Shown here: in pieces, positions 7,630 through 40,593 of the stretch
Layout: each line of letters opens with the position of its first letter
Position numbering within the stretch: the first letter of the stretch is position 1
Assembly (NCBI GenBank): GCA_001769275.1
Contig: MEOQ01000028.1
Location: 57,986-121,985, forward strand
Length of the DNA stretch: 64,000 nt
Reading direction: 5' to 3'
Source: Bacteroidetes bacterium GWF2_43_63
GTDB lineage: Bacteria; Bacteroidota; Bacteroidia; Bacteroidales; DTU049
Position numbers and translations under genes: made by a program
The notes under the pieces: generated by a model
Seen by the model: the letters and a program-made list of their open reading frames with translations, nothing else
Database searches by the model: none
Told to the model about the DNA's origin: nothing

Positions 7630-7708
7630 AGCAGTATGTTTTAGAGTGATATTGATTCTCGTTATTCAAACAAATATAATAAAACTTTTGAATATGAGTG
7701 GATTTGTT

Positions 7709-7846
7709 TTACTCCAGTTCAAAAGCATCCATATAATTTTTCACAATAAAAACATCACCGTCGCGGAATTCGAGCTCGAGGGAGATATCGTACATGTCAT
7801 AACCCAGACTCATAATTATCCGGAAGTCAGTTAGGCAATTTTCCAT
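7709..7846 (-). CDS. Possible 45-residue ORF in frame after the M15 peptidase gene
   Basis: After the double stop of the peptidase gene (7937) the same frame stays open for about 72 codons to a TAA at 7709. The only ATG is at 7846 and gives 45 residues ending NYMDAFELE. The upstream in-frame part (VPLNNQDDVANYDSTLFFLESKSG) also looks coding but lacks a start codon. It may be the tail of a decayed gene, a read-through extension, or chance. I saw no clear ribosome-binding site. Confidence 0.25.
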   Translation of the reverse strand: MENCLTDFRIIMSLGYDMYDISLELEFRDGDVFIVKNYMDAFELE

Positions 7847-7936
7847 CGCACAACCCGATTTTGATTCGAGAAAAAACAATGTGCTATCATAATTCGCAAC
7901 ATCATCTTGATTATTAAGCGGAACAAACTTTATTTA

Positions 7937-8641: not shown

Positions 8642-8647
8642 TTTTTT

Positions 8648-9478
8648 CTATGGTTTGATGATTTTTATACTGCAGTTTTCATTGGCATGTTGCTGGAGCA
8701 AATTAAAAACATATAGAATGGCCCATGATGTTTTCATCGGAGCATTGAAATGACTGAAAACGATTTTTTTTGATATATTCCCATGATAGAATATTGTGAA
8801 AGAATATACGGCAGCATCAACACCTGATGAATATGTTTCGCGGGAACAATTTAAAATGTCCGAATAAGACAGTCGGGTTGAAATATTTTTCATTTCTGCA
8901 GAATCTAGTTGTCCGGTGCAAAACGATTCTTCATCATATATGTATGTGAGATTGAATTTGCCGTTTGAAAACAGTGAATATCGATGCCAAATATTCCATC
9001 CATTGAAAAAATTCAGATGCAGAGAATCAAATTTGACCTGACGAAACGTTGGCCTGAACCGAACCCAGTTTGTTGGTTTCTCATTGTTTGAAAGGAATAG
9101 CGTATCTTTATCTATCCTGATAATTTTGCTTTTAAGCCACTCTTTCTTCAGCGGATCAGTGATGATAATTGAATCATTCCGGATTTCCCATGATCCGATC
9201 GTTCCCAAATATGCATCATTGTTGTCTTTTTTGTCATTCCAGAATCCACGGAATGCTTCTGCCTGACCATCAGAAAAAAGAAAAAATCCTTTCTGATCAC
9301 AGCCAGCCGGTTTGCGAATCTTTGTTGTTTGCAGATGATTTAAAAAATCGTCGTTAGGAATTATATAACCGTCATCAACATACCATGCGCCGACGATCTC
9401 TTTTTTAATGTCAGCTTGTTTGCATGAAACAAGCCCAAAAAGCAAAGAAACTGATATGACAAATATTGAGTAATTCAT
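8648..9478 (-). CDS. Lipoprotein with lipocalin-like N-terminal domain, function unknown
   Basis: The 276-residue precursor has a lipoprotein signal MNYSIFVISVSLLFGLVSCKQ (lipid Cys19). Residues 25-140 read IVGAWYVDDG ... GSWEIRNDSIIITDP ... IIRIDKDTLFLSN, a pattern seen in lipocalin-like 'G-x-W' domains of Bacteroidota. The C-terminal half (about 145-276) has no recognised motif. It lies 6 bases upstream of the M15 gene on the same strand, so the two are probably co-transcribed. The ligand is unknown. Confidence 0.65.
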   Translation of the reverse strand: MNYSIFVISVSLLFGLVSCKQADIKKEIVGAWYVDDGYIIPNDDFLNHLQTTKIRKPAGCDQKGFFLFSDGQAEAFRGFWNDKKDNNDAYLGTIGSWEIRNDSIIITDPLKKEWLKSKIIRIDKDTLFLSNNEKPTNWVRFRPTFRQVKFDSLHLNFFNGWNIWHRYSLFSNGKFNLTYIYDEESFCTGQLDSAEMKNISTRLSYSDILNCSRETYSSGVDAAVYSFTIFYHGNISKKIVFSHFNAPMKTSWAILYVFNLLQQHANENCSIKIIKP

Positions 9479-9486
9479 TTATTGCA

Positions 9487-10851
9487 TTATCTCAAAAACC
9501 GTTTCAACCATTTCATTTTTCCTTTTGTATAAGGCGGATATTTCAGGTTGGGTTCAAAGCGGAATGGTTTATACATAACGCTTTTGTAGTGCGAAAAAGT
9601 ACGGAAACCGGCTTCGCCGTGATAACTTCCGGTGCCGCTGTGACCCACGCCTCCGAAGGGCAGCCGCGGATTTGAAATATGCATGATGGTGTCGTTGATG
9701 GCACCGCCGCCAAACGAAATTTCATGCAATATTTTTCTGCGAATTTTTTTGCTTTTCGTGAAAACATAGCAGGCAAGCGGCTTTGGACGATCCTTTACTT
9801 CGATAATTATTTTTTCAAGGTCATCAAAGCCAATCACAGGAAGAATGGGGCCGAAGATTTCATCGTCCATCACCGGGTGTGAAAACTCAATATCCGTAAG
9901 CACTGTCGGGCTGATGTATCGCTCCTCGCGGTTGTGTTCGCCACCGGTGAATACTTTTATTGTGTCAATCATTTTTTCCAGACGATCGAAATTGCGCTCA
10001 TTGATGATCTGCACATGATTTTTATTTTCGAAGGAATAGCGGAAATCATCTATCTGAGCCTTGATGGCTTGCAGAAATTTCTCCTTGATTTTATTTTCAA
10101 CCAGCACATAATCAGGCGCTATGCAGGTTTGACCGGCATTGAGAAATTTTCCCCACACAAGGCGTTTTGCAGTGACCTCGAGGTTGGTATCGGCAAACAC
10201 AAAGGCTGGACTTTTTCCGCCCAACTCCAGCGTGACCGGAGTCAGGTTTTTGGCGGCTGCCTGGTAAACAATGTTTCCAACAGGTACACTTCCGGTGAAA
10301 AATATTTTATCGAATTTTTCTTTCAGCAATGCTGTTGTTTCGGGCACGCCGCCTTCAACCACATGAAAAACGCCCGGATCGAAATTATTATTTACCAGTT
10401 CCGCCATCAATGCCGATGTGTGTGATGACAATTCGCTGGGTTTCAAAACAACAGTGTTTCCTGCTGCCAGAGCGGCAATGGCTGGTGCGAACGAAAGCTG
10501 GTACGGATAGTTCCAGGCGCCGATAACGAGACACACTCCATACGGTTCAGGCATAATAAACGAACGTGCTGGCATGTTTGGAATGTTGGTCAGAACGCGC
10601 TTTGGCCGACTCCAGCGCTTCATTTTTTTCAACGATTCGCCAATGTCGCTGTACAAAATTCCAAGCTCGGTGGCATAGGTCTCGAATTCTCCTTTTTTGA
10701 AATCATCGTAAATGGCCTCACAGAGCCGCTTTTCGTTTGTCTGAAGAATAGTTCTCAATCGGTTCAATTGTTCAGTTCTGAAGCTGATATCTTTGGTGAC
10801 ATTGCTGTGAAAGAAATCGCGCTGGCGTTGAATTATTGCTGTATATTCCAT
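9487..10851 (-). CDS. Aldehyde dehydrogenase, ALDH3-like
   Basis: This 454-residue soluble NAD(P)-dependent enzyme oxidises aldehydes to carboxylic acids. The catalytic Cys243 lies in GQTCIAPDYVL and the general-base Glu209 in VTLELGGKSP, while GSVPVG near residue 187 fits the cofactor loop. The length and the C-terminal GGVGHSGTGSYHGEAGFRTFSHYKSV place it in the short ALDH3/fatty-aldehyde group, not in the roughly 490-residue ALDH1/2 group. The start follows directly from ATGGAATAT at 10851. It stands alone, 8 bases before the lipoprotein gene on the same strand. The physiological aldehyde is not evident. Confidence 0.9.
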   Translation of the reverse strand: MEYTAIIQRQRDFFHSNVTKDISFRTEQLNRLRTILQTNEKRLCEAIYDDFKKGEFETYATELGILYSDIGESLKKMKRWSRPKRVLTNIPNMPARSFIMPEPYGVCLVIGAWNYPYQLSFAPAIAALAAGNTVVLKPSELSSHTSALMAELVNNNFDPGVFHVVEGGVPETTALLKEKFDKIFFTGSVPVGNIVYQAAAKNLTPVTLELGGKSPAFVFADTNLEVTAKRLVWGKFLNAGQTCIAPDYVLVENKIKEKFLQAIKAQIDDFRYSFENKNHVQIINERNFDRLEKMIDTIKVFTGGEHNREERYISPTVLTDIEFSHPVMDDEIFGPILPVIGFDDLEKIIIEVKDRPKPLACYVFTKSKKIRRKILHEISFGGGAINDTIMHISNPRLPFGGVGHSGTGSYHGEAGFRTFSHYKSVMYKPFRFEPNLKYPPYTKGKMKWLKRFLR

Positions 10852-26450: not shown

Positions 26451-27461
26451 ATGGCTACAAACAAGCATGCTACAATGAGATATTTGGCGCTGGACCGTTG
26501 CTTTAGCAACTTTGGCCGCAAGTACTTTGTTGAAGATCTTATTGTGGCTTGTAATGATGCTATTTTCGAATTTGCAGGAATTTCTGATGGAATAAAGAGG
26601 AGACAAGTTTTTGATGATATCACTTTTATGGAAAGTGATCAAGGTTGGGCCATACCTCTTGAGCGCATCAAAGAAGGCCGACGGGTCTATTATCGATACT
26701 CAGACAAATCATTTTCAATTACAAATCAAGGAATTAATCAATCTGAAGCAAAACAACTAAGCGAGACGCTATCGATTCTTTCCCGGTTTAAAGGCATGCC
26801 ACAATTTGACTGGATTGATGAAATACAAATTCGCCTGGTAGACACGTTTAAATTATCAGATCATTCTAAATCAGTAGTTGCTTTCGAGCAGAATCCATTC
26901 TTGAAAGGGCTAAGCCATTTTTCGGATTTATTTAATGCCATAAAGAACCAGAAAGCTTTAGAAATCGAGTATCAAGGATTTAAACAAGATAGCCCTGTAG
27001 AACTTGTTTTTCATCCATGGTTTTTGAAAGAATTCAATGACAGATGGTTTTTATTTGGTTTAAACGATGGGTACAACTCAATCTCGAATCTGGCAATTGA
27101 CAGAATAAAATCAATAAAAGAGTCGAAAAAAACATACATTGAAAACCTTGACATAGATTTTGATGATTACTTTTTTGATGTAATCGGTGTTACAGTGAAA
27201 GAAAATGCCAAAGTTGAGAAAATTAAAATCATTGTTTCTGATGAAGTCTGGCCTTATATTGAAAGCAAGCCGCTTCATGGGTCACAAAGAATTAAGCGAA
27301 AAACCCAATCGGGGGTAGAAATCGAGCTTACAGTGCAAATTAATCATGAATTAAATGCGCTTTTGTTTTCGTACATGGATGCTATTGAAGTGCTTGAACC
27401 AGAACCACTTAGGGTGTTGTTTAAAAAAAGGTCAGAAATCATTTATAATAAATACCTTTGA
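26451..27461 (+). CDS. WYL-domain transcription regulator of the defence operon
   Basis: The 336-residue protein has an N-terminal winged-helix region (about 1-75, RYLALDRCFSNFGRKYFVEDLIVACNDAI), a WYL domain at about 155-235 (LFNAIKNQKALEIEYQGF ... LVFHPWFLKEFNDRWFLFGLNDGYN ... LAIDRIKSIKE) and a WCX-like C-terminal domain (about 245-335). Proteins of this build (BrxR/CapW type) sit at the head of phage-defence operons and repress them until a nucleic-acid or nucleotide signal arrives. It is followed after 55 bases by the methylase-kinase gene on the same strand. The regulatory role is inferred from family and position. Confidence 0.85.
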   Translation: MATNKHATMRYLALDRCFSNFGRKYFVEDLIVACNDAIFEFAGISDGIKRRQVFDDITFMESDQGWAIPLERIKEGRRVYYRYSDKSFSITNQGINQSEAKQLSETLSILSRFKGMPQFDWIDEIQIRLVDTFKLSDHSKSVVAFEQNPFLKGLSHFSDLFNAIKNQKALEIEYQGFKQDSPVELVFHPWFLKEFNDRWFLFGLNDGYNSISNLAIDRIKSIKESKKTYIENLDIDFDDYFFDVIGVTVKENAKVEKIKIIVSDEVWPYIESKPLHGSQRIKRKTQSGVEIELTVQINHELNALLFSYMDAIEVLEPEPLRVLFKKRSEIIYNKYL

Positions 27462-27516
27462 CCTATGCGCTTGTACTGCACAGATGTATTTCACCTTTGC
27501 TTCATCAATCAAATAA

Positions 27517-29970
27517 TTGTTTATGATGAAGAACGCTAATACCATCTCGGCCACAACTATTGAGAATATTAAGACTCGCATTTGGTCAGTATTCAATGTT
27601 TTAAGAAATGAAAACGTTGTGGCAAGAGATTATTACATCGTTTTGTTTTTTTTGTCTGTATTTAAAGATGGTATAATTTCAAAAGAAACTCTTTTTTCTG
27701 AGACAGATCTGAAAAAGATGATTTGTAAAACAATTAACGAATCTTCAAATGAGACAATAGTTAGATACAGGCCTTTATTGGATAGTTTCAAGTCAGGTAT
27801 TGAAAACATGAGCGATATTGGAATTCGTGAGATTTTTCAGGTATTCCATGGACTTGATAAAAAGTGTCTTTCTGAAAATTTTCCAGATATTTTTGATAGT
27901 ATACTCTATCGTATTTCACAATCTCAAGGTCGATTTGGTGGAGAGTACATACAACCAATTGAGCTTACTCGACTCATTAATGCATTGGCTGGAAACTCTG
28001 CTAAAATATTTAATCCATTTGCTGGTTTTGCATCATTTGGGGTAATTCTGAACGATAATGAAAAGTATTTCGGGCAAGAAATTGACCAACGCACATGGGC
28101 TATTGGGACACTACGAATTTTGGCTCATGAAATAGGAAATCAGGTAAAATATATCTGTGATGACTCAATAAAACATTGGCCTAAATCATTAGAAAAATTT
28201 GACCTTATTGTTGCCAATCCTCCATTTGGAATGCGTATTGGGAATTATTATCATGACATTGCAGGTAACTACAGTACAGTTGAATCATTTTTTATTGATA
28301 GAGGACTATCGTCCCTAACAAAAAGTGGAAAATTAATAGCTTTAATTCCACAAGGATTTCTTTTCCAAAGTGGACAAGCACGGCAGCTGAGAGAGCGCCT
28401 TTTAGATCAGGATCTGGTAGATGCCGTAATTTCATTTCCTGGAGGATTGCTTTATAACACAGGAATGTCATTGGCAATTTTAGTTATTAGCAAGAAAAAA
28501 GATACTCCAGGTTTTGTTCGGTTCATTGATGGTACGGCTTTCATTGAAACAAATTCCAGAAGGGAAAAACAACTCAATGATATTGCTATGATTTCGGCCA
28601 TTTCTGACAACAAGAATGCAAAATTCGTTCGACACATTGAGATTGAAAAAGTTTGGGACCAGGATTATAACTTAAGTGTGTCAAGGTATTTTCGAAAGGA
28701 AATAGATGGAGTAAAACTCAGAGAGATTCTTGAGGTTGTGAGAGGCGAAAGAGCAAATATTCCAGCCACAGGAAAATTTATCCAAATTAAAAACTTGAAA
28801 GATGATAAATTCAATTTCAAGTTGGATCTTTCATCCCTAGAGGACATGGAATTAAGAAGGCCGGCTGTTCGTATGATTAATGAGTCTTGCTTGCTTCTGG
28901 CAACGCGATGGAGAACGATTAAACCAACCTATTTTGAGTATATTAATGAATCCTTATTCCTAAGTCAAGATATTCTCTCGTTCAAAATTGATGAATCAAT
29001 TGTTGACCTAAAATATTTAATCAACGAATTACATGCAGACTATGTCCTGGAACAGCTTGAATTTGTGAGAACAGGGGCTATTATTCCATCATTAAGGAAA
29101 GAGGATATTCTAGATGCCGTTATTAAACTGCCATCTTTAGCAGAGCAACGAGCTAAAGTTCAAGGTCTTTTTGAGCTTTCAAATAAAATTCAAAAACTTC
29201 AGGATGAACGTGATGCTTTGGCTCACGGAAAGTTAATCAGGCAATTCAATGAATTTTCTTCTTTAAAACATACATTGGGAAGGCCTCGGCAGAATATTCT
29301 TGATTGGTCAGACAATTTGCTTGATTTTTTAAATAGGAAAAATGAAGGATTTGAATTATTAAATAAGGCATTCGCTGAATTTTATGACATTGATATCATT
29401 TCGGCGTTAAAAGAAATCAAACGAGATACAAATTTCATTACTGACGTTCTTGAAAAAGGTGAAAATGGCCTTGTTCTTTCTGAATATGAAAAGCAAACAA
29501 TCTCGCTTTTAGAAATAAATAGCATTGTTGGTGAACTTTCAAATAATGGATTCATCTTTAAAATTAAAAAGTTGTTACTTAAAGGCGAAAAATTAAAAGA
29601 AAGAGGAATTTATGCGAATAGAACACTTTTTAAAATATTACTGGACAACCTCTTGACGAATGCTAATAAATATGCCTTTGACAAAAAGGCAGCAGGAAAC
29701 GATGTGATTATTGAATTAACAGTGGTTGAAACTTCTCTTTTGCTTGAGATTAAAAATAACGGAAAGCCTTTCCCGAAAAACTTCGATAGGGAGAAATTCA
29801 TTACCAAATATTCCACAGCTGACTCACAGAATGGTAGTGGTATAGGCGGGTATGACATTCACAGAATTGCAACAGAATTTAATAACCCAGATTGGATTTT
29901 ATCATTGAACAAGGACCCATTGTTTCCTGTGATATTTATTTTTCAATTTCCAATCAAACTAATAAATTGA
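27517..29970 (+). CDS. Adenine-N6 DNA methylase fused to histidine-kinase domains
   Basis: The 817-residue protein is an HsdM-like methylase in its first half. It has motif I NPFAGFASFG (166-175), motif IV NPPF (234-237, in LIVANPPFGMRI) and the family block GKLIALIPQGFLFQSG. Residues about 380-560 resemble a target-recognition domain with the usual 'LPSLAEQ' junction. The last 240 residues are kinase-like: a helix with FSSLKH585TLGRPRQNI, spaced like an HisKA H-box (L+2, P+5, I+9), and a GHKL ATPase with N-box LDNLLTNANKY (709-719), NNGKPF (747-752) where DNG is usual, and GSGIGGYDI (773-781). It abuts the receiver gene by two bases. I know of no described protein with this order of domains. 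Confidence 0.82.
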   Translation: MFMMKNANTISATTIENIKTRIWSVFNVLRNENVVARDYYIVLFFLSVFKDGIISKETLFSETDLKKMICKTINESSNETIVRYRPLLDSFKSGIENMSDIGIREIFQVFHGLDKKCLSENFPDIFDSILYRISQSQGRFGGEYIQPIELTRLINALAGNSAKIFNPFAGFASFGVILNDNEKYFGQEIDQRTWAIGTLRILAHEIGNQVKYICDDSIKHWPKSLEKFDLIVANPPFGMRIGNYYHDIAGNYSTVESFFIDRGLSSLTKSGKLIALIPQGFLFQSGQARQLRERLLDQDLVDAVISFPGGLLYNTGMSLAILVISKKKDTPGFVRFIDGTAFIETNSRREKQLNDIAMISAISDNKNAKFVRHIEIEKVWDQDYNLSVSRYFRKEIDGVKLREILEVVRGERANIPATGKFIQIKNLKDDKFNFKLDLSSLEDMELRRPAVRMINESCLLLATRWRTIKPTYFEYINESLFLSQDILSFKIDESIVDLKYLINELHADYVLEQLEFVRTGAIIPSLRKEDILDAVIKLPSLAEQRAKVQGLFELSNKIQKLQDERDALAHGKLIRQFNEFSSLKHTLGRPRQNILDWSDNLLDFLNRKNEGFELLNKAFAEFYDIDIISALKEIKRDTNFITDVLEKGENGLVLSEYEKQTISLLEINSIVGELSNNGFIFKIKKLLLKGEKLKERGIYANRTLFKILLDNLLTNANKYAFDKKAAGNDVIIELTVVETSLLLEIKNNGKPFPKNFDREKFITKYSTADSQNGSGIGGYDIHRIATEFNNPDWILSLNKDPLFPVIFIFQFPIKLIN

Positions 29971-29972
29971 TT

Positions 29973-31145
29973 ATGGAAGATAAAATTTACAATATTTTGT
30001 GGATAGACGATGAACATGAAACCCTTACTGGACTGAAAGGCAGAGCAAAGCGAAACAGCATTAATTTGATGCCATTTAAATCATTGAATAATGGCATGGA
30101 TGAATTGGAACGGAATTATTCATTCTATGATGGTATTTTGTTTGACGCTAAAATCTTTGAAAACGAAGATGATGTAAAAGGCACAGAAGACACCTACAAC
30201 TTATTTAGAGCAACGGAGCGGATGCTTCAAATTGACAAGAAGTTTGAGGTGTTTGTTCTTACAGGCCAGTCGGAGGCTTATGAAGACAAAACCTTTAAAA
30301 AAGCTTATACCAGGGTTTACAAAAAAGGCAGTGACGAGGAAATTGACCGTTTATTTAAAGAGATTAAGCTTTCTTCTGACAAACAAGAAGACACTCAAAT
30401 CCGCCATTGCTATAAACGTGTATTTGAAGTTTGTACGAAAAAATACATTGGTGAACATGCAGGGCATGATATTTTGAGCTTGTTGAAAGTCAATAACGAG
30501 GCTGATATTGACAATCACCTAAATACCATCAGAAAAATTATTGAAGACCTTTTTTTCGCATTCAATAAATTAGGCTTATTACCTGATGAATTTGTGAAGC
30601 CATTTGTTGCTTTAAATGAAAGCAGTAAGTTTTTGACAGGAAAAGGCTCAAATGAAACCTTATTTATAGAAAAGGGATATCGTCATTCACAAGAAACTCA
30701 TCTTCCACCCCTAATCGCATCGTATTTGAGATGTATTTTATCTGTAACGCAAGCAGGGTCTCATAGATCAAGTATTGATTTATATTTAAAGACCATCAAA
30801 ACGCCATACCTTTTCAAAAGTGTTCTTTTTCAGCTTTTAGATGTGTTGGTTTGGTTTAAAATGCATGTAGATTCTAATCCAAAAACTGAGAATTGGGTAA
30901 AAGTTGAAGCTGTTAAAGATATATGCGAGTCAACAGTTGAACTGATCCCCGGTAAAGTCATCAACATTAATTCTAAAGCGGGCTTTGCATTCTTCAAGCC
31001 TGATAATGGCTCCCCAAATGCCTATATACCAAGTGTTTTGGTTACTGAATTTTCCTTGTGTGAAAATCAACGAATTCTGACTAGGTATACTCCAAAGGGA
31101 AAGGGCTTGGAGGTAATCGAAATACAACAAGAGTCTGTGCATTAG
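29973..31145 (+). CDS. Receiver-domain protein with cold-shock-like C-terminus
   Basis: The 390-residue protein opens with a receiver domain with correctly spaced active residues: D12/D13 in ILWIDDE, phospho-acceptor D58 in GILFDAKIF, T97 in VFVLTGQ and K117 in RVYKKGS. A long helical middle (130-320) matches nothing I know. Residues about 327-387 (GKVININSKAGFAFFKPDNG ... YIPSVLV ... GKGLEVIEIQ) have the outline of a cold-shock/OB fold that binds single-stranded RNA or DNA. The start ATG at 29973 lies two bases after the methylase-kinase stop. It is the natural phosphorelay partner of that protein. Confidence 0.78.
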   Translation: MEDKIYNILWIDDEHETLTGLKGRAKRNSINLMPFKSLNNGMDELERNYSFYDGILFDAKIFENEDDVKGTEDTYNLFRATERMLQIDKKFEVFVLTGQSEAYEDKTFKKAYTRVYKKGSDEEIDRLFKEIKLSSDKQEDTQIRHCYKRVFEVCTKKYIGEHAGHDILSLLKVNNEADIDNHLNTIRKIIEDLFFAFNKLGLLPDEFVKPFVALNESSKFLTGKGSNETLFIEKGYRHSQETHLPPLIASYLRCILSVTQAGSHRSSIDLYLKTIKTPYLFKSVLFQLLDVLVWFKMHVDSNPKTENWVKVEAVKDICESTVELIPGKVININSKAGFAFFKPDNGSPNAYIPSVLVTEFSLCENQRILTRYTPKGKGLEVIEIQQESVH

Positions 31146-31166
31146 AAATTAAATAAATTTGTAGCT

Positions 31167-34100
31167 ATGACAAGCAGATCCGAAAATAGTTTTAACAGCA
31201 ATTTTAAGTTTCTTGAAGTTGACTTTTCATTGTTAGCCAATATCGGCACTTCTGCCGAATTTTACTGTTTTTCCGATCCAGCTGTTTCACTTGCAAAATC
31301 TCGTTTGTTCGGAGAGAAACTAACAGAACTCATGTTTGAATATCATGTTCTGATGTACCCAGAAAAAAATGATTTTAGCAATCGCTTAAGAGCTCTAAAA
31401 TACAAAGACATATTACCACCTACAATTACCAATCTTCTCTATACAATAAAAGATAAGGGCAACCATGCTGTTCATAACAATACCGGTACAAAAGAAGAAG
31501 CCATAACAATATTATCCTGTACATTCAAAGTGGCTAAGTGGGTTCAGGGTGTTTATGGTAAATCGAAAATTGATTTAGAAAAAATATCATTTATTGAACC
31601 AGAAAATCACGATGTGAGGCATGCTTTACAATTGCTTTCAAAAGAATTTTATAAGCTAGAAAAGGAGTTTGCAGAGTTAAAATCAAAACACGAAACGGCA
31701 AAGAAGCAGCTTAGTGATGCAGAAACGAAAAAATTAAAGGAAAAAGCTGTTTTAATTGCTTCTAAAATAGAGCTCGACGAAAGCGAAACCCGCATTATAA
31801 TTGATCGCCAACTAAAAGATGCCGGCTGGGAAGTGGATACTCAGATTTTGAATTTCAAGAAAAATAAAACTCTGCCAGAAAAAGGAAAAAACCTTGCTAT
31901 AGCAGAATGGCCAGTTGGCAAACTTTGGGCTGACTATGCACTGTTTTGTGGCTTAGAATTTATCGGGATAATAGAAGCCAAAAAGAAGGGCAAAGATGTT
32001 ATATCCGATCTTAGTCAGGCTCAAATATACTCTAAAAACGCTGAAAACAAACACACTGCTATTTTACTTGGGAAATGGGATGATTATAACGTTCCTTTTA
32101 TGTTTTCTGCAAATGGTAGACCTTATCATCCTCAGCTTGAAATAAAATCGGGGATGTGGTTTCTCGATGGCCGCAAAAGCACAAACCATCCTAAAGTTCT
32201 GCGTAATTGGTTTTCGCCAAACGATCTAAAAGCATTATTTGAAAAAGACATAGATAAAGCCAACAGTGATTTAAAGGAAGAACCATTAGATTACCTGACT
32301 GATCCAAACGGATTGGCCCTTAGGTATTACCAGTTAGATGCTATTGAAGCTGTTGAAAATGCAATTGCAAATGCAGATAAATTTGACAACAGAGCTCTCG
32401 TTGCAATGGCAACAGGCACTGGGAAAACCAGAACAATTCTTGGTTTATGTTACCGCCTACTCAAAACACATCGATTTAAAAGAATACTTTTCTTGGTTGA
32501 TAGAAACATTTTGGGACGCCAGGCTTCTGACCGGTTCAAAGATGTAATTATTGAAGATTTACAGGTGTTCTCCGATATATACGATCTTAAAGATTTAGAA
32601 GAAAGAAAACCTGATGTTGATACAAAAATACATTTTGCAACTGTTCAAGGGATGGTGCAACGAATATTTAATAGCGATGATGAAACACCTTCGATAGGCT
32701 CATATGATTGCATTATTGTGGATGAAGCTCACCGAGGATATATTCTCGACCGCGAAATTGATGAAACATTGATTGATTACAAAGATCAATTAGATTTCAT
32801 GAGTAAATACAAAATGGTTCTTGATTATTTTGATGCTTTCAGAATTGGCTTGACTGCTACACCAGCGCTTCATACAACTGAGATTTTTGGAAATCCGGTG
32901 TATCGTTATACATACAGGGATGCGGTTTTAGACGATTATCTAGTAGATCATGAGCCTCCGTATACAATTAAGACCGAACTTAATCAGAAAGGAATTAAAT
33001 GGGTGAAAGGTGAAAGGCCCACAGTGTATGTCCGGAAAACACAATCTGTAGAAGTCCTCGACGCACTGAAGGACGAACTTGGATTCGATGTAGAAGAATT
33101 CAATAAAAAGGTCATCACCGAGCCTTTTAATAAGGCAATTCTTGGAGAACTAGTGAATCATATTGATCCTGCATCGCAGCAAAAAACGCTTATTTATGCA
33201 GCCTCAGACAATCATGCAGATATGGTTGTAGATATTTTGATAAAGGAATTTGAAAAAGGTGGAATTGAATTAGAAAATGACGCGATTTTAAAAATTACCG
33301 GATCAGTTCAAAAACCCACTCCTCAGGAGAGAGTCGATTTGTTCAGAAATGAAAGAAACCCGAACATAGTTGTAACAGTAGATTTACTTACAACAGGAGT
33401 TGATATTCCTGAAATTTGCAATCTTGTTTTTATAAGAAAAGTAAAGTCTCGCATTTTGTATGAACAGATGCTGGGTCGTGCCACACGAAAGGCGGATCAT
33501 ATAAACAAAGAGGTTTTTAAAATTTTTGATGCTGTTGACCTATATAGCACGCTAGAGGAATTTACGACTATGAAGCCAGTTGTAACTTCAGTAAAAACAT
33601 CTCTTGAAGGACTTGTAAAAGAGGCTTTAATTATTAAGAAAAAAGATGTAGCAAAACAGGTAATTGACGAAATTATTGCTAGATTAAATCGTAGAAAAAA
33701 CAGAATTAAGGATGAAAATCTCGAATCGTTCATAAAGCTTTCTGGTGGTAAAACCCCTGAACAGTTTATTAAAAGCTTGCGAAAATCTTCAACAGCTAAA
33801 GCAAAGAGTTTAATAAATAATCATATTAACCTTTTTCGCTTTCTCGATAAAATGGTTCAAGAACCTGAATTACAATTCATATCAGAACATCCAGATCAAG
33901 TTCAGGATGTGGACCGTGGTTACGGAGAAGCAAAAAAACCTGAAGACTATATTGAAAGTTTCAGGAAATTCATTACAGACAATGTTAATAAAGTTCCTGC
34001 CCTATCTGTTGTTTGCACAAAGCCTAAAGAGCTTTCAAGGCAAACACTAAGAGAGCTTAAAAGGACACTTGACTCTGCTGGGTTTACTGCAACAACCTTG

Positions 34101-34442
34101 AATACAGCGTGGAAAGAAGCAAGAAATGAAGATATCGCAGCTGACATCATTTCTTTTGTCCGCACCATGGCATTAGGTAGCTCATTGATCAGTCACGAGG
34201 AACGCATTAAAAAAGCTTTTCAAAAAATTCGTGGTCAGCACAAATGGTCTGTAATTCAGTTGAAGTGGTTAGACCGTTTTGAAAAACAATTATTAAAAGA
34301 AAATGTACTTACAAAAGAGGATTTCAACATGCAGCCATTCAAGGCAGATGGTGGTTTTGACAGAATAAATAAGATTTTTAACAACGAATTGGATACTGTT
34401 CTTGATATGATAAATCAGAACTTGTACCAACTTACAGCATAA
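31167..34442 (+). CDS. hsdR: Type I restriction enzyme R subunit with DUF4145 domain
   Basis: The 1091-residue motor and nuclease subunit cleaves unmodified DNA far from the recognition site. Residues about 15-130 form a DUF4145 domain, followed by a coiled coil (150-210). The HSDR_N nuclease has D256 and E270-A-K272. The SF2 translocase has Walker A MATGTGKT (414-421), DEAH (519-522) and LTATP, and motif VI is in LGRATR. The C-terminus (about 830-1090) resembles the EcoEI R C-terminal domain. It lies 21 bases after the receiver gene and 15 bases before hsdM, so it belongs to one long operon. Confidence 0.95.
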   Translation: MTSRSENSFNSNFKFLEVDFSLLANIGTSAEFYCFSDPAVSLAKSRLFGEKLTELMFEYHVLMYPEKNDFSNRLRALKYKDILPPTITNLLYTIKDKGNHAVHNNTGTKEEAITILSCTFKVAKWVQGVYGKSKIDLEKISFIEPENHDVRHALQLLSKEFYKLEKEFAELKSKHETAKKQLSDAETKKLKEKAVLIASKIELDESETRIIIDRQLKDAGWEVDTQILNFKKNKTLPEKGKNLAIAEWPVGKLWADYALFCGLEFIGIIEAKKKGKDVISDLSQAQIYSKNAENKHTAILLGKWDDYNVPFMFSANGRPYHPQLEIKSGMWFLDGRKSTNHPKVLRNWFSPNDLKALFEKDIDKANSDLKEEPLDYLTDPNGLALRYYQLDAIEAVENAIANADKFDNRALVAMATGTGKTRTILGLCYRLLKTHRFKRILFLVDRNILGRQASDRFKDVIIEDLQVFSDIYDLKDLEERKPDVDTKIHFATVQGMVQRIFNSDDETPSIGSYDCIIVDEAHRGYILDREIDETLIDYKDQLDFMSKYKMVLDYFDAFRIGLTATPALHTTEIFGNPVYRYTYRDAVLDDYLVDHEPPYTIKTELNQKGIKWVKGERPTVYVRKTQSVEVLDALKDELGFDVEEFNKKVITEPFNKAILGELVNHIDPASQQKTLIYAASDNHADMVVDILIKEFEKGGIELENDAILKITGSVQKPTPQERVDLFRNERNPNIVVTVDLLTTGVDIPEICNLVFIRKVKSRILYEQMLGRATRKADHINKEVFKIFDAVDLYSTLEEFTTMKPVVTSVKTSLEGLVKEALIIKKKDVAKQVIDEIIARLNRRKNRIKDENLESFIKLSGGKTPEQFIKSLRKSSTAKAKSLINNHINLFRFLDKMVQEPELQFISEHPDQVQDVDRGYGEAKKPEDYIESFRKFITDNVNKVPALSVVCTKPKELSRQTLRELKRTLDSAGFTATTLNTAWKEARNEDIAADIISFVRTMALGSSLISHEERIKKAFQKIRGQHKWSVIQLKWLDRFEKQLLKENVLTKEDFNMQPFKADGGFDRINKIFNNELDTVLDMINQNLYQLTA

Positions 34443-34457
34443 TTAAATTGATTTGAA

Positions 34458-35855
34458 ATGAACACTAAAGAAATTGTTGACAAACTTTGGAATTTGTGTA
34501 ATACTCTTCGTGATGATGGTATCACTTATCACCAATATGTTTCTGAACTCACCTATATTCTTTTCCTTAAAATGGCAAAAGAAACAGGTACAGAAGATAA
34601 AATTCCGGAAAAATATCGTTGGGATAAATTAGTAAAGAAGGAGGGCGTCGAATTAAAGAAATTTTATCGCCAGCTTCTACTTGATTTAGGCACCATCGGC
34701 TCTGGCAAAGTAAAACAGATTTACACAAATGCTCAGACAAATATTGATGAGCCAAAAAATCTTGAAAAAATCATCAAAAATATTGATGCACTCGACTGGT
34801 ATTCAGCAAAAGAGGAAGGCTTGGGTAATCTTTACGAAGGCCTGTTGGAGAAAAATGCAAATGAAAAAAAATCAGGTGCCGGGCAGTATTTTACCCCTCG
34901 CCCCCTGATTGAAGTGATGGTAAACCTGATGGAACCAAAGCCTGGCGAGCTTTGCAACGACCCCGCTTGTGGCACTTTTGGTTTTATGGTACTAGTTGAT
35001 AAATACCTCAGAGCAAAATACGATGATTATTATGCCGATGGTGTTGATGCAAATTTTCAGCGCACCAAAGCTTTGTCTGGTTGCGAACTGGTTCAGGAAA
35101 CACATCGCCTGGCCTTGATGAATGCAATGCTACATGAAATTGATGGCCCCATATATTTTGCAGATACACTATCACAGGCTGGTGAAAAACTGAAAGGGTA
35201 TGATCTTGTTCTTACTAATCCTCCTTTCGGCACAAAAAAAGGCGGTGAACGTCCAACTCGAAGCGACCTCACTTTTAAAACCAGCAACAAGCAATTGAAT
35301 TTTTTACAGCACATCTATCGTTCACTAAAACCAAATGGCAAAGCCCGTGCAGCAGTTGTGTTGCCCGACAATGTATTGTTTCAGGATGGTGATGGCCAAA
35401 AAGTGCGTACCGACCTCCTGAACAAATGCAACCTCCATACAATTCTTCGCTTGCCTACTGGTATATTCTACGCTCAAGGTGTTAAAACCAATGTGTTGTT
35501 CTTTACGCGTGGCGAAAAAGACACAAATAACACAAAGAAAGTTTGGTATTATGACCTTCGTACCAACATGGAAAGCTTTGGTAAACGAAACCAGTTATCT
35601 GCTGAGGATTTCACCGATTTTGTGAAATTATACAAAGCCAAAGACCGTAGTAAAATAAAAGACGAACGCTGGTCTGTCTATTCTCGGGAGGATATTAAAA
35701 TAAAAGGCGATAATCTGGATTTGGGCTTAATTGAAGACAATAATGTTCTAAAATCTCAGAACATTTCCTCACCTGAAGTATTGTTACAAAGCGCCTCCGA
35801 GAACTTGAAAGCTATCTTAAAAGATATTGAATTAATCGCAAAAGAATTGAAATGA
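34458..35855 (+). CDS. hsdM: Type I DNA methyltransferase M subunit
   Basis: The 465-residue adenine-N6 methylase has an N-terminal HsdM_N helical domain (about 5-130), the hallmark GAGQYFTPRPLIEVMV, SAM motif I DPACGTFG (168-175) and catalytic NPPF (254-257) in LVLTNPPFGTKKGG. The C-terminus is the helical part that holds the S subunit. It is a normal, complete HsdM, and thus the second adenine methylase in this operon. Its stop overlaps the hsdS start by four bases (ATGA), so M and S are translationally coupled. Confidence 0.95.
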   Translation: MNTKEIVDKLWNLCNTLRDDGITYHQYVSELTYILFLKMAKETGTEDKIPEKYRWDKLVKKEGVELKKFYRQLLLDLGTIGSGKVKQIYTNAQTNIDEPKNLEKIIKNIDALDWYSAKEEGLGNLYEGLLEKNANEKKSGAGQYFTPRPLIEVMVNLMEPKPGELCNDPACGTFGFMVLVDKYLRAKYDDYYADGVDANFQRTKALSGCELVQETHRLALMNAMLHEIDGPIYFADTLSQAGEKLKGYDLVLTNPPFGTKKGGERPTRSDLTFKTSNKQLNFLQHIYRSLKPNGKARAAVVLPDNVLFQDGDGQKVRTDLLNKCNLHTILRLPTGIFYAQGVKTNVLFFTRGEKDTNNTKKVWYYDLRTNMESFGKRNQLSAEDFTDFVKLYKAKDRSKIKDERWSVYSREDIKIKGDNLDLGLIEDNNVLKSQNISSPEVLLQSASENLKAILKDIELIAKELK

Positions 35856-37363
35856 TGAGTGCAGATTCAAAAATAGGATGGTCAAGTATCAAACTAAATG
35901 ATTTAACAACATTTGTCATTGGTGGTGATTGGGGAAAAGATGTCGAAGACGAAACAAACAATGATTTCTTTGAGGTTGGTTGTATAAGAGCAGCAGAATT
36001 AAAAAATTGGCGAATTGAGAAAGGCAAAACCGCAGCTCTCAGAAAAATCAAAGGTTCTAGCCTTGAATCAAGGGAGTTAACATCAGGAGATATTATTTTA
36101 GAAATTTCTGGCGGTGGACCTGACCAACCTGTTGGTCGCACAGTTTATATTGATGAGGAAACAATTGAACAAAGCCCGGTTCCTTTAGTTTGCACAAATT
36201 TTTTTCGCTTGCTTCGTATGACTGATTTTGTAAATATAAGATACATTCAGAATTATTTACATTTTCACTATTTATCTGGAGATATTATCAAGTATCAGGG
36301 TGGCAGCAATAATCTTAGAAACCTGAGATTTAGCGATTATAAAGAAATTAATATTCCCCTTGCCCCCAGACAAGAACAAAATAGAATTTCTCAAAAAATC
36401 GAAACCATATTTATGCATATTGATTCACTTAATTCCCGCATTGATACTATACCGCAGCTTTTAAAGCAATTCCGCCAGCAAGTACTTTCGTATGCCGTGA
36501 GTGGTAAATTGACTGAGGATTGGAGAAAAGGAAAAAAATTGAAAAATGGGTTACTTGAAATTCAGAGTAATCGGCAGAAATATTTTGATAAAATAGGTAA
36601 AGTCGGAAATTCTAAGAAGCCTAACAGTACTCCATTTAATAAGTTTGAACTTGATGAAAATTATAAATTACCAACCTCGTGGAATATTGCAAACATAAAA
36701 AATATTGCTGATTTAATCACAGATGGTGAACATGCTACCCCAAAAAGATCTTCTGAAGGATATTATTTGTTATCAGCAAGAAATATTCAAAATGGTTATA
36801 TTAGTCTTGACAAGGTTGATTTTGTTCCGGAGGACGAATATCTAAGAATTAAAAAAAGATGTAATCCTGAATTTAATGATGTATTAATATCATGTTCTGG
36901 AAGTGTTGGTAGAGTTTGCACTGTCCCTATAAATTTAAAATTTGTAATGGTCAGAAGTGCAGCATTGATAAAACTTCAATCTAATCAGGATTCTGCAAAA
37001 TATATTGAATTCGTTTTAAGGTCGGATCTTGTACAAAATCAGATTAAGAAGCTTCAGAAAGCTACAGCACAAGCCAATCTCTTTATCGAACCAATTGGAA
37101 AAATTGTAATACCTATCCCGTCAATTATCGAACAAAAGGAAATTGTTCGTCGTGTCGAGAATTTATTTTTTTATGCGGATGCAATAGAAGAAAAATATAA
37201 AACAGTTTTAACCTCTGTTGAACAATTACCTCATTCAATTTTAAAAAAAGCTTTTGAAGGTTCATTAGTCAAGCAAAATCCCAAGGATGAACCGGCAGAG
37301 AAGTTGGTGGAGAGGATCAAAAAAAACAATATATCTAATAGCAGCAAAAAAAATAAAAGGTAA
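35852..37363 (+). CDS. hsdS: Type I specificity S subunit
   Basis: The 503-residue protein has two target-recognition domains (about 5-190 and 260-410), separated by the central conserved helix EQNRISQKIETIFMHIDSLNSRI and closed by a second helix (EIVRRVENLFFYADAIEEKY) near the C-terminus. The two half-repeats each begin with a W-x-I/T pattern (GWSSIKLNDLTTF, SWNIANIKNIADL). The protein reads the two halves of the bipartite target for both modification and cleavage. It overlaps hsdM by four bases. The recognised sequence cannot be read from the protein. Confidence 0.93.
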   Translation: MMSADSKIGWSSIKLNDLTTFVIGGDWGKDVEDETNNDFFEVGCIRAAELKNWRIEKGKTAALRKIKGSSLESRELTSGDIILEISGGGPDQPVGRTVYIDEETIEQSPVPLVCTNFFRLLRMTDFVNIRYIQNYLHFHYLSGDIIKYQGGSNNLRNLRFSDYKEINIPLAPRQEQNRISQKIETIFMHIDSLNSRIDTIPQLLKQFRQQVLSYAVSGKLTEDWRKGKKLKNGLLEIQSNRQKYFDKIGKVGNSKKPNSTPFNKFELDENYKLPTSWNIANIKNIADLITDGEHATPKRSSEGYYLLSARNIQNGYISLDKVDFVPEDEYLRIKKRCNPEFNDVLISCSGSVGRVCTVPINLKFVMVRSAALIKLQSNQDSAKYIEFVLRSDLVQNQIKKLQKATAQANLFIEPIGKIVIPIPSIIEQKEIVRRVENLFFYADAIEEKYKTVLTSVEQLPHSILKKAFEGSLVKQNPKDEPAEKLVERIKKNNISNSSKKNKR

Positions 37364-37364
37364 T

Positions 37365-38726
37365 ATGGAAAACTATTTTAATCTTATCGATCAAGTTTCA
37401 ATTGGCAGGAATTATAATTGGGCATCGCTGAATATCGATCTTAATTTTAACAAACAAGATATCGATCTTGAAAGTATTATTAATGGGAGCAAACAATTTG
37501 GTAATACTCAAAATGAAAGAATTTTTGTTCATGAATATGTTCACTATTTACAAAACTTTTATTGTAGTTGGGGGGGACTTGTCTTTTGCGAACTGGTACT
37601 AGCTTTAGATAAAATGGGGGCTTCAAAAGTCAATGATAATATTATTTTAAAATTACCGTTAAAAATAAAAGAAATTTCTGATGCTGAATTATGGAATTCT
37701 GGAGTTAAACACTACAATAAGTTTTATTCATTAATTGGCGATATAAAAGGCACTACTTCTTTTGAAAAAATTGGTGAATACCCAAAGGTCGTTATTAAAG
37801 AAATTTCCGAAGATGTGATAATTTTTAATAATGGCAGAATATCATTTTCTCTTAACGGACGTACAATAAGAGAACACATGGCAGAATATTCTTCGTTATT
37901 GTTTTTAAATTATACAGATGAACAAATTCATCAGGATTTAATTAATTCAAAAATACACTGCACCTCTAATGGCACCCTTGAAAAAAATCCAGAATATTGG
38001 ATATTATTTGAGTTCTTCTTTACAAATAACTATAAAAACGTAGCAGAAGGACTGGTTTTATTATGTTCTACTTCATTATCTACAGCGAGCCCCAATAGGT
38101 CAATTATTAGATTTTTTAAGTTTTTAAATGACTTTAAAGAAGAATTAGGTGGGAAAGACAATTTATTAAACATCGTACATGGATTTCTTGCAACACCAAC
38201 CGAAGTAATTGCTTTTTCATTTTCATTCTACGCAACTTTAAAAAATATCACTGAACAGCTTGCTCTATGTACAAAATATTTTGATCACAGTTTTTATAAA
38301 TTTAATTCAATAATATTTACTCAATTAATGAATAATATTTATCATGACTTTAGTAGTAAGAAAATCTTTGACAATCCAACTCTATTAAGGGATAAAGCAT
38401 TTTGGGTAGATTTATTAAATTCTACAGGAACTCCTATAATTAGATATAAAGATAAAACTCCTATTATATCTACATATAATTCTGACTTAATTGATGCATT
38501 GACATATTTCTTTGGGGTTATCAAAGTATTAGAAGATTTAACAGATAGCTCAAAATGCAATTGCCCTTTTCATTCAGAATTTAAAATTTGTAAAGCAGAT
38601 TATAAAAATGATGAATTGTGTCTTCAAGAACCACTTTTAGTAGTAAATCCAGTAGATAAAGGAAAAGATTGTCTTTACCATAATGCAATTAAATTGATGG
38701 GTTTTGATAACAGAATAGAATTATAA
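37365..38726 (+). CDS. Unknown protein with HEXXH metallopeptidase-like motif
   Basis: The 453-residue protein starts two bases after hsdS (ATG 37365; a longer frame inside hsdS is less likely). H56-E-Y-V-H60 in FVHEYVHYLQNF is a zinc-peptidase HEXXH, and E174 in IREHMAEYSSLLF could be the third ligand, as in gluzincins. The C-terminus holds a cysteine/histidine cluster CNCPFHSEFKIC at about 405-416, perhaps a structural metal site. I do not recognise the family. Its place directly behind hsdS in the same transcript suggests a role with the restriction system, for example cleaving a partner. This is inference only. Confidence 0.6.
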   Translation: MENYFNLIDQVSIGRNYNWASLNIDLNFNKQDIDLESIINGSKQFGNTQNERIFVHEYVHYLQNFYCSWGGLVFCELVLALDKMGASKVNDNIILKLPLKIKEISDAELWNSGVKHYNKFYSLIGDIKGTTSFEKIGEYPKVVIKEISEDVIIFNNGRISFSLNGRTIREHMAEYSSLLFLNYTDEQIHQDLINSKIHCTSNGTLEKNPEYWILFEFFFTNNYKNVAEGLVLLCSTSLSTASPNRSIIRFFKFLNDFKEELGGKDNLLNIVHGFLATPTEVIAFSFSFYATLKNITEQLALCTKYFDHSFYKFNSIIFTQLMNNIYHDFSSKKIFDNPTLLRDKAFWVDLLNSTGTPIIRYKDKTPIISTYNSDLIDALTYFFGVIKVLEDLTDSSKCNCPFHSEFKICKADYKNDELCLQEPLLVVNPVDKGKDCLYHNAIKLMGFDNRIEL

Positions 38727-38744
38727 AGTAACAGAATAATTAGC

Positions 38745-39143
38745 ATGGCAGAAATCCCTAGAAATAACACTGGTCTCTCTGGAGAATTTTTCGTGGCTGC
38801 AGAACTCTACAGGCGTGGCTGGTCAGTGGGCATAACCATTGGCAATGCAAAAGCAGTTGATCTTTTTGCTGAAAAAGACAACAAGAGAATTGCTGTTCAG
38901 GTAAAATCAATTTACAAAAAGAAGAATGTCGGCTGGCCAATCATGAGAGATCAGGTTAGAAATGAGTGTTTCTACATTTTTGTCAATCTGAATGCAGACA
39001 CAATGGCTCTTCCGGATTATTTTATTTGCACGGCTGATGAAGCGCGTAAAAAAGTAAAACAATATGTAACAAGAGGTATAATTGATTTGAACACAATAAA
39101 TTCTTCAGAATTTAAAGATAATTGGGAAAAACTCGAAAAGTAA
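38745..39143 (+). CDS. Small PD-(D/E)XK nuclease-like protein
   Basis: The 132-residue protein has the nuclease core GEFFVAAELYRRGW (helix 1), D39 in AVDLFAE and Q52-V-K54 in IAVQVKS. The E of the usual ExK is replaced by Q, as in several restriction-type members (QxK variants). It is close in length to single-domain Holliday-junction or DUF4365-like nucleases. It lies 18 bases downstream of the HEXXH gene and runs directly into the Mrr gene. Function is likely DNA cleavage, or a structural relative without activity. Confidence 0.6.
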   Translation: MAEIPRNNTGLSGEFFVAAELYRRGWSVGITIGNAKAVDLFAEKDNKRIAVQVKSIYKKKNVGWPIMRDQVRNECFYIFVNLNADTMALPDYFICTADEARKKVKQYVTRGIIDLNTINSSEFKDNWEKLEK

Positions 39144-39169
39144 ACAATGTAATTAAAAAACAACAACCA

Positions 39170-40078
39170 ATGATACCAGACTACCAAACTGTAATGCTGC
39201 CATTTTTAAAACAACTTGCTGATGGAAAAGAGCATGGGTTCAGAGAAATAATCGAAAATCTTGCTGTGGAATTTAGTGTTACGGAAGAAGAAAGAAAAGA
39301 GTTTTTTCCAAGTGGTTCTCAAAACATTTTTGATAATCGGATTGGATGGGCAAGAACGTATCTTAAGAAAGCTAAGTTAATAGAGTCCCCAAAACGTGGG
39401 TATTCTGTAATAACTGAGGATGGACTCATGGTTTTAAAAGAAAAACCAGACAGAATTGATGTTGCATATCTTAAGAGATTTCCAGCTTTTACGGATTTCA
39501 TTGGAAACAAAAAGGAAATTACTGATGAGGCCGAACAAAAATCTGAAATAGTGCAGACTCCCGAAGAATCTCTTGAAGCTTCATATCAGGAATTGAGAAA
39601 GTCACTCGCGCAAGACTTACTTCAACAAGTATTAAGCATGTCTCCGGCATTTTTTGAGCGCCTTGTTGTTGAGTTGCTCGTAAAGATGGGTTATGGCGGC
39701 TCAATAAACGATGCTGGCAGGGCAATTGGCCGCAGTGGCGATGAAGGCATTGATGGAACAATCAAAGAAGACAGGCTAGGTCTTGACATCATTTATATTC
39801 AGGCAAAACGGTGGCAAAAAGGAAATGTGGTTGGTCGCCCAGAGATTCAAAAATTTGTCGGTGCTTTGGCTGGCCAAGGTGCGAAAAAGGGGATTTTCAT
39901 AACAACCTCATCTTTTACAAGAGAAGCTGTTGATTATACTCCACGAAATGAAACTAAAATAGTTTTGATTGACGGAGAAAAGCTCTCACAGTTTATGATT
40001 GATTTTGGTATTGGAGTGTCTATGGTCAACACTTATGCTGTAAAGCGAATTGATAGTGATTATTTTAGTGAAGAATAA
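39170..40078 (+). CDS. mrr: Mrr-family restriction endonuclease
   Basis: The 302-residue type IV restriction enzyme cuts modified DNA. The N-terminal Mrr_N winged-helix starts MIPDYQTVMLPFLKQLADG, and the C-terminal Mrr_cat domain (about 150-280) has FFERLVVELLVKMGYGG, GDEGIDG with D195, and Q211-A-K213 in IIYIQAKRW. I chose ATG 39170 because this is the usual family start, whereas the longer frame begins at a TTG inside the preceding gene. Mrr in the same run as a type I system could give complementary protection against modified phage DNA. Confidence 0.9.
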   Translation: MIPDYQTVMLPFLKQLADGKEHGFREIIENLAVEFSVTEEERKEFFPSGSQNIFDNRIGWARTYLKKAKLIESPKRGYSVITEDGLMVLKEKPDRIDVAYLKRFPAFTDFIGNKKEITDEAEQKSEIVQTPEESLEASYQELRKSLAQDLLQQVLSMSPAFFERLVVELLVKMGYGGSINDAGRAIGRSGDEGIDGTIKEDRLGLDIIYIQAKRWQKGNVVGRPEIQKFVGALAGQGAKKGIFITTSSFTREAVDYTPRNETKIVLIDGEKLSQFMIDFGIGVSMVNTYAVKRIDSDYFSEE

Positions 40079-40104
40079 TATTGTTCAGCAAAAATTCATC
40101 ATTC

Positions 40105-40593
40105 ATGTCCACCACCCACTTCTCCCACAACCTCATCAAAGGCCGCGTTGCGGAAACGATCATTCAGGAATTGTTTCAAGCAAACGATTATAATGTGTTT
40201 AGTTATGGCATGGAGCGCACTGTGCCGGCCATCATTCATGGCATTAAGGGGCTGAACAGCGAGGTAGCTAAAGCCATCCGCAGCATGCCCGATTTTGTGA
40301 TGCAAAACACCAGAAACGGAGAGTTGTTTTATGTGGAAGTGAAATACCGCGCCTGGGGCCATTTTGCGCTAAAAGATTTGATTGAAGATTATCCGTACAC
40401 CAATGCACATTTCATTATTGTGACGAATCGGAGTATGTTGCATATTACCTATCAGGATTTGAAAGCCGGGAAGAAGCCGGCAGCCTTGCGCAGTGATAAT
40501 CTGTTTGGGTTGAGTGCTGAGTCGCTGAAGGTTTATCGGGAGTATGTGGGGGAGTTTTTGGGGAGTGAGAGAAACTTGTCACAACAAATCTAA
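40105..40593 (+). CDS. Hypothetical PD-(D/E)XK-like protein
   Basis: The 162-residue protein shows the nuclease-fold layout with E17 in GRVAETIIQELF, D63 in MPDFVMQ and E78-V-K80 in FYVEVKYR, followed by IIVTNRS. It starts 26 bases after mrr, where a TTG at 40081 would give a longer N-terminus but lacks support. The base composition is GC-richer than that of the upstream genes, so it may have joined the run later. No specific family is recognised. Confidence 0.55.
   Translation: MSTTHFSHNLIKGRVAETIIQELFQANDYNVFSYGMERTVPAIIHGIKGLNSEVAKAIRSMPDFVMQNTRNGELFYVEVKYRAWGHFALKDLIEDYPYTNAHFIIVTNRSMLHITYQDLKAGKKPAALRSDNLFGLSAESLKVYREYVGEFLGSERNLSQQI

Follow-up and report, generated by a model that had tools for sequence, protein, structure and literature searches.

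A methylase-fused histidine kinase and its adjoining receiver as a putative relay beside type I restriction genes in Bacteroidota

Introduction

How type I restriction is turned on without host killing is an old question. Its known controls, namely controller proteins, WYL and RptR repressors and proteolysis, act elsewhere than the gene pair described here. This pair lies in a 64,000-nucleotide stretch of Bacteroidetes bacterium GWF2_43_63 (GenBank assembly GCA_001769275.1, contig MEOQ01000028.1, positions 57,986 to 121,985), referred to as the window. Its first gene encodes a type I methylase joined to one target-recognition domain (TRD) and a histidine-kinase core (the sensor), and its second a protein with a receiver domain; a WYL gene precedes them and hsdR, hsdM and hsdS follow. 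We consider it fairly probable that the pair forms a two-component relay, with the methylase part as its predicted sensor and the adjacent restriction operon as its likely target. An earlier note, made from the DNA letters alone, had proposed a methylase-kinase fusion beside a receiver-cold-shock protein, and the domain anatomy of both genes (27523-29970 and 29973-31145) confirms this. Its interpretation holds only in part, and it overlooked the TRD, the loss of methylase motif IV, the WYL gene with its palindrome and the exchangeable companion system.

Among described systems, Detocs likewise uses kinase-receiver signalling in phage defence, being a three-gene family that degrades ATP according to passages of PMC11249213. 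Its best-described effector is a PNP domain, whereas the window sensor carries a methylase and TRD instead, and no PNP domain is among the Pfam matches of the ten open reading frames (ORFs) at 26451-40593. TOTE conflict loci (TPR, OB, TBP, effector; named so in passages of PMC12458937), with their HisKin-conflict and iREC genes, also unite WYL, histidine kinase, receiver and S1/CSD fold in a single locus but lack a methylase fusion. Neither TBP nor TPR was found in the window's ten ORFs, HisKin-conflict matched neither the window sensor nor ten far sensors, and iREC matched none of the window proteins. S1CSD-TOTE-2 scored above its cut-off in one relative (P0122, 28.0 bits) and is absent from the match list of the window protein. 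In CoCoNuT type I-B, a receiver domain sits in CnuA, within a restriction-type system, and regulation by a histidine kinase is proposed there (PMC11090510). The passages on it name no dedicated kinase, whereas the window kinase adjoins its receiver and is fused to a methylase.

The sensor resembles type I M and S subunits in its methylase and TRD folds but differs from them in having a single TRD, a kinase that replaces the second S half and, in many relatives, no intact motif IV. The WYL gene can be set beside the BrxR family by features rather than phylogeny, both being WYL regulators next to defence genes with inverted-repeat sites. Passages of PMC9122601 describe 11-bp repeats with a 5-bp spacer and repression for BrxR, whilst the window site has 7-bp arms and a 7-bp spacer and lies 3' of the WYL gene, before the regulated unit. 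For MADS, the MAD2 cut-off of 720 was missed by both the companion HsdM (89.3 bits) and the sensor (17.8 bits). A literature search that covered few subscription journals found no description of a methylase-kinase fusion, of this pair or of a methylase serving as a receptor. Among the abbreviations that a figure legend in PMC13092281 gives for predicted systems are HATPase and REC, which may or may not denote this pair.

Conservation of the sensor and receiver pair

We read 28 loci (the window, L003-L020, L029-L036 and L038). A scan of species genomes yielded 18 loci, and nine genomes in a 395-genome sample of the phylum held a receiver homologue, the window's own genome counted. Three records of a plasmid collection matched, all from Myroides and each of 43,223 bases, one of which, the mobilizable plasmid pFM-G13, was read for the locus. 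The phage collection searched for the receiver gave zero matches. The sensor gene was found immediately 5' of the receiver gene in all 28 loci and the two were never apart; where the intergenic gap was measured (25 loci) it ranged from -35 to +4 nt. In L020 the receiver is truncated by the contig end. Far sensors share 23-37% identity with the window copy, and ten of them scanned at E <= 0.1 matched N6_Mtase (10/10), HATPase_c (9/10) and Methylase_S (6/10).

Pairwise identities of the kinase part and the receiver were closely correlated (Pearson 0.977, Spearman 0.801; 25 loci, 300 pairs), and remained so among 14 near loci (0.838). The kinase part also correlated with the TRD (0.899) and, over 20 loci, with the WYL protein (0.565). 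By contrast, no correlation was seen with the companion HsdM (Pearson 0.017, Spearman 0.035; 20 loci, 190 pairs). L007, with an interrupted sensor, and L038 were excluded from these comparisons and from the 26-sensor motif tally below, L038 also from the sensor tree; L019, a near copy of L018, was left out of the correlations but counted among the 26 sensors. Because the kinase co-diverges with the receiver and not with HsdM, the pair behaves as one portable signalling unit, apparently combined with unrelated type I operons, and the restriction system would be interchangeable. The HsdR subunits scanned differ in Pfam family: the window's matches EcoEI_R_C, that of L009 EcoR124_C and that of L033 T1RH-like_C. 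Of the 28 loci, 23 have a separate HsdM-like gene within the stretch fetched.

Some loci showed peculiarities. In this assembly of L007 the sensor frame (7648-9998) is split into ORFs of 658 and 110 aa, through loss or sequencing error. On contig C50 of the window's own genome (L037, 8893-9759) an orphan protein with receiver and helical parts has no adjoining sensor and no cold-shock part; it was excluded from the pair counts and belongs to a large family of relatives of about 290 aa. In L004 (5486-15061) the next gene on the 3' side of the unit encodes a HerA-type ATPase, and metabolic genes lie beyond it. Other defence domains occur close to the unit elsewhere: GmrSD in L006 and L035, Piwi in L009 and TIR in L013.

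The methylase and target-recognition part

Structure-alignment matches of the window sensor covered its methylase and TRD regions only, and were to type I M and S subunits (PacII, EcoR124 and the Vibrio YJ016 MTase). The TRD is a single stretch of HsdS type, recognised by Methylase_S and by solved HsdS chains. Motif IV followed the canonical [ND]PP[FYW] pattern in only 13 of 26 sensors compared with 20 of 20 companion HsdMs (Fisher p 1.4e-4). The non-canonical forms were HPPF (three), NPPL and TPPF (two each), and SPPL, NPRL, SPPI, DP-F, YPPI and DLPS. On the sensor tree, which has long branches on some far rows, 9 changes of the motif IV state are needed, and well-supported branches require at least 7 of these.

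Among the best 120 of 690 near relatives, motif IV was readable in 115 and read NPPF or NPPY in 93, SPPF in nine and another form in 13; SPPF is tolerated in some methylases. Motif I (NPFAG-ASF) was kept in 118 of these 120 and the H-box string in 119. Within the set of 26 sensors, L034 and L035 have a broken motif I. These tallies indicate that the kinase His is retained even where the methylase Asn has been lost. As motif IV decays in sensors and in none of the 20 companion HsdMs, methylation by the sensor seems expendable and sensing by its methylase part is likely.

The TRD, at 58% identity across 13 near loci, was better conserved than the sensor's own methylase domain (51%). L008 and L012 share the HsdR/HsdM family of the window; their HsdM is 57% and their sensor TRD 57% identical to the window's, but their HsdS only about 27%. 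Thus, judged from these identities, the sensor's recognition is uncoupled from that of its companion, and a fixed target is likely what it reads.

The histidine-kinase part

HATPase_c matched the window sensor with an E value of 1.1e-5, 0.1 bit below the cut-off. Solved histidine kinases matched over the DHp and catalytic domains when a diverse profile (A6) was used, with H585 of the window aligned on the H-box His of 4i5s and 4jas; a low-diversity profile (A5) had matched only a repeat protein and was dropped. Scores for the look-alikes ORF6C and PFL-like were under their cut-offs in the window proteins. In 16 kinase parts, reaching down to 16% identity to the first, the H585 equivalent was the sole invariant DHp residue, and the other invariants were the N and A of the N box, the N and G of G1 and two G of G2. 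The His is also present in 26/26 sensors. H585, which the earlier note had put forward as the phosphorylated His, thus remains a good candidate (16/16 and 26/26). The note's helix pair and catalytic fold were looked for in the predicted structure, and two DHp-region helices were seen at 575-604 and 625-647 (model numbering, two lower than the earlier note's numbering used elsewhere), and a mixed alpha/beta part, belonging to the catalytic domain, comes after them.

The receiver protein

Structure-alignment matches of the second protein covered its receiver region only. Residues D13, D58, T/S97 and K118 were kept in 13/13 divergent members and D12 in 12/13. The earlier note had named D12/D13, D58, T97 and K117; all stand except K117, which is not conserved in these members, the conserved Lys being K118. 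Its proposed kinase-receiver relay is supported by adjacency (28/28), co-divergence (r = 0.977), the invariant His and D13, D58 and K118. Mean identity over 13 near loci was 76% for the receiver, 71% for the helical middle domain and 40% for the cold-shock part, the least conserved domain; this part was not seen in L034-L037. The cold-shock fold therefore looks accessory on this comparison, weakening the idea that it binds phage transcripts. Domain scans recognised no catalytic domain in the receiver protein. Its middle domain is alike, by eye only, to a DUF4145 domain at the N-terminus of the window HsdR.

The WYL gene and the palindrome

A WYL gene lies on the same contig as the unit in 26 of the 28 loci, the L030 copy being just 27% identical. 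The palindrome CTRTGCA-N7-TGCAYAG was found with up to 3 mismatches within 300 nt 5' of the sensor in 24/28 loci compared with 3.2% of random 300-nt windows, a conservative control because these were drawn from the same loci and include real sites. It ended 35-73 nt before the sensor start in 23 of the 24 loci and 254 nt before it in L020. A TTTG follows the palindrome at roughly constant spacing across the loci compared, and TAnnTTTG, which we take to be the Bacteroidota -7 consensus, is the basis for labelling CACCTTTG in the window. L011 and L030 have 4 mismatches with TGCA-N7-TGCA retained. No site was seen in L035 and L036 (5 and 6 mismatches), and their genomes are without a WYL match at E <= 0.001.

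The palindrome also occurs away from the sensor. In L008 and L012 the WYL gene sits upstream of hsdR on the same contig (L071 and L070), and each of these genomes has two perfect palindromes, one directly after WYL and ahead of the restriction genes, the other ahead of the sensor. Where a genome gave no receiver match, sites neighbouring WYL homologues had 2 (L079), 2 (L080), 1 (L081), 0 (L082) and 4 (L085) mismatches. Distant WYLs (35-40% identity) had [AG]CGCA-N7-TGCG[CT] in 14/35 rows counted by eye, several of these sites lying hundreds of nt away from the gene, a variant recognised post hoc and without a control of its own. On the other side, L085, L099, L102 and L103 have 4-5 mismatches, contrary to WYL as the binder, and random 4-kb windows of the same loci (real sites included) reached 3 mismatches in 47% and 0 in 13%. 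Since similar sites adjoin WYLs in receiver-less genomes and L035 and L036 lack both site and WYL, the WYL protein is the likely binder. As the palindrome accompanies WYL and, in two genomes, also stands in front of a separate restriction unit, the sensor, receiver and restriction genes are likely one WYL-controlled regulon. The sensor's own methylase-TRD part was considered as binder, the palindrome being bipartite like a type I site, and was set aside because the palindrome tracks WYL.

Across the 395 genomes, 13 perfect palindromes occurred in 12 genomes, whereas the backwards pattern was found in 4 genomes. A receiver match is present in three of the 12 (G142, G163 and, on a different contig, G089), and two more have a WYL homologue at 0.3 and 4 kb (G169 and G171); in the two inspected of the remainder (L075 and L077) the sites lie inside ORFs and are probably due to chance. 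The window's own genome contains 32 sites with up to 2 mismatches against 8 for the control, and its 2-mismatch sites are mostly not evidence. With up to 1 mismatch, only the window site and one on contig C45 were found. About 9.5 kb separate the C45 site from the WYL gene (42% identical) of a TOTE-like locus.

This second WYL locus (L073, contig C45, 6663-16559) has its own phosphorelay, with gene matches to reverse transcriptase, HisKin-conflict, iREC plus receiver, TBP-TOTE with AAA helicase and S1CSD-TOTE, and a 2-mismatch palindrome 34 nt 5' of the TBP-TOTE gene. In L016, palindromes at 4380, 8054 and 10853 (3, 1 and 3 mismatches) precede the sensor, hsdM and a CSD plus DUF3825 gene, so far as position goes pointing to several units that may be co-regulated. 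L033 has, besides its pre-sensor palindrome, three others at 6901, 7157 and 7421 (2, 1 and 3 mismatches) spaced by 256 and 264 bp.

Proposed mechanism and alternative explanations

In the relay that we propose, the methylase-TRD part would bind DNA or a DNA-mimicking protein, with the sensor perhaps a dimer through its DHp helices, which would stand in place of the second HsdS half. Binding would gate autophosphorylation at H585, the phosphate would move from there to D58, and the phosphorylated receiver might then, through its helical domain, act on the restriction genes by changing either their activity or their expression. The WYL protein likely sits on the palindrome as a repressor of all these genes, sensor and receiver included, and would let go once a ligand of its own appears. 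The evidence that kinase and receiver are partners is strong, whilst we infer input and output: the methylase part as input and the restriction genes as target are plausible. A bolder form of the proposal, which we regard as doubtful, makes the methylase half a catalytically expendable bait, a dead or dying DNA-modification enzyme turned receptor. A phage antirestriction DNA mimic gripping the M.S part, or a fixed foreign-DNA signature, would fire the relay, and with WYL the unit would be a portable alarm, open to adoption by type I operons of very different kinds.

Several observations weigh against the relay with restriction genes as its target. The link from receiver to restriction genes comes from gene order alone, and the shared regulon points to WYL rather than to the receiver. 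Among near loci the kinase-HsdM correlation was above zero (0.279, 12 loci). Five of the 28 loci (L003, L004, L007, L020 and L033) have no separate HsdM in the stretch fetched; of these, the L003, L007 and L020 stretches stop shortly past the receiver and L033 carries HsdR, and zero restriction genes were seen within about 10 kb in L004. This last locus would suit a receiver protein that is itself the effector, as in Detocs, its phosphorylated helical and cold-shock parts acting on nucleic acid and the restriction genes being mere neighbours. The middle domain is indeed conserved almost like the receiver (71% and 76% over the 13 near loci). We nevertheless judge such an effector quite unlikely, given that its cold-shock part is variable or not seen, that the protein has no recognised catalytic domain and that an HsdM-like gene accompanies the pair at most loci.

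The window sensor itself has an intact NPPF and on that ground its methylase may still work. Taken with the NPPF or NPPY of most readable near relatives (93/115) and their motif I (118/120), this fits an epigenetic regulator, in which the sensor is a working fixed-target DNA methylase, switched by kinase and receiver, and not a receptor. That explanation is unlikely in view of the non-canonical motif IV in half of the 26 sensors and the broken motif I of L034 and L035, in which the kinase His is kept, whilst all 20 companion HsdMs retain motif IV. The kinase also departs from the usual pattern. Its G1 Asp is replaced by Asn in 26/26 sensors, and the residue next after the phospho-His, typically acidic in histidine kinases, is Thr in the window and acidic in only 2/26 (L034 and L035), so judged by these residues kinase activity could be weak or lost. 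Pfam HisKA gave no match in the window sensor, and the model confidence (pLDDT) of the DHp region is low to moderate (about 43-74, 54 around H585). The same residues and the missing HisKA match would suit a GHKL module that is an ATP-driven methylase switch and no kinase, with the receiver binding without phosphotransfer. This we hold to be very improbable, as the His is kept in every sensor, histidine kinases give the best profile matches, with His aligned on His in the alignments inspected, and the phosphorylation pocket of the receiver is intact.

Across the phylum, then, different type I operons share the kinase-receiver unit and the WYL palindrome. Our proposed relay makes signal control of restriction directly testable through two residues (H585 and D58) and one 21-bp site, and the sensor suggests that a DNA methylase can be converted into a receptor domain.

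Layout of the window locus

Table 1. Features of the sensor-receiver locus, in window positions; residue numbers follow the earlier note.
Feature	Position	Strand	Evidence or remark
WYL + WCX regulator, 336 aa	26451..27461	+	Pfam WYL 1.6e-12, WCX 9.5e-8
Palindrome CTATGCGCTTGTACTGCACAG, putative WYL operator	27463..27483	.	CTRTGCA-N7-TGCAYAG with one mismatch; two nt past WYL stop
CACCTTTG, candidate Bacteroidota -7 promoter element	27492..27499	+	placed by TTTG position
Sensor: type I methylase + one TRD + histidine-kinase core, 815 aa	27523..29970	+	
N6 methylase domain of sensor, residues 121-394	27877..28698	+	
TRD of sensor, half an HsdS, about residues 395-560	28699..29196	+	Methylase_S; solved HsdS chains
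DHp region of sensor, with H585 (codon 29269-29271)	29239..29466	+	
GHKL catalytic domain of sensor, with N, G1 (Asp to Asn) and G2 boxes	29479..29967	+	
Response protein, 390 aa: receiver (D58 codon 30144-30146) + helical domain + cold-shock fold	29973..31145	+	
Companion HsdR	31167..34442	+	NCBIfam PRK11448 1353.8 bits, cut-off 729
Companion HsdM	34458..35855	+	N6_Mtase 2.2e-71, HsdM_N
Companion HsdS	35852..37363	+	two Methylase_S stretches

On the 3' side of hsdS, a 479-aa ORF (37287-38726) had no match in Pfam, PADLOC or NCBIfam. Downstream of it lie a PDDEXK_5-like gene and then an Mrr gene.

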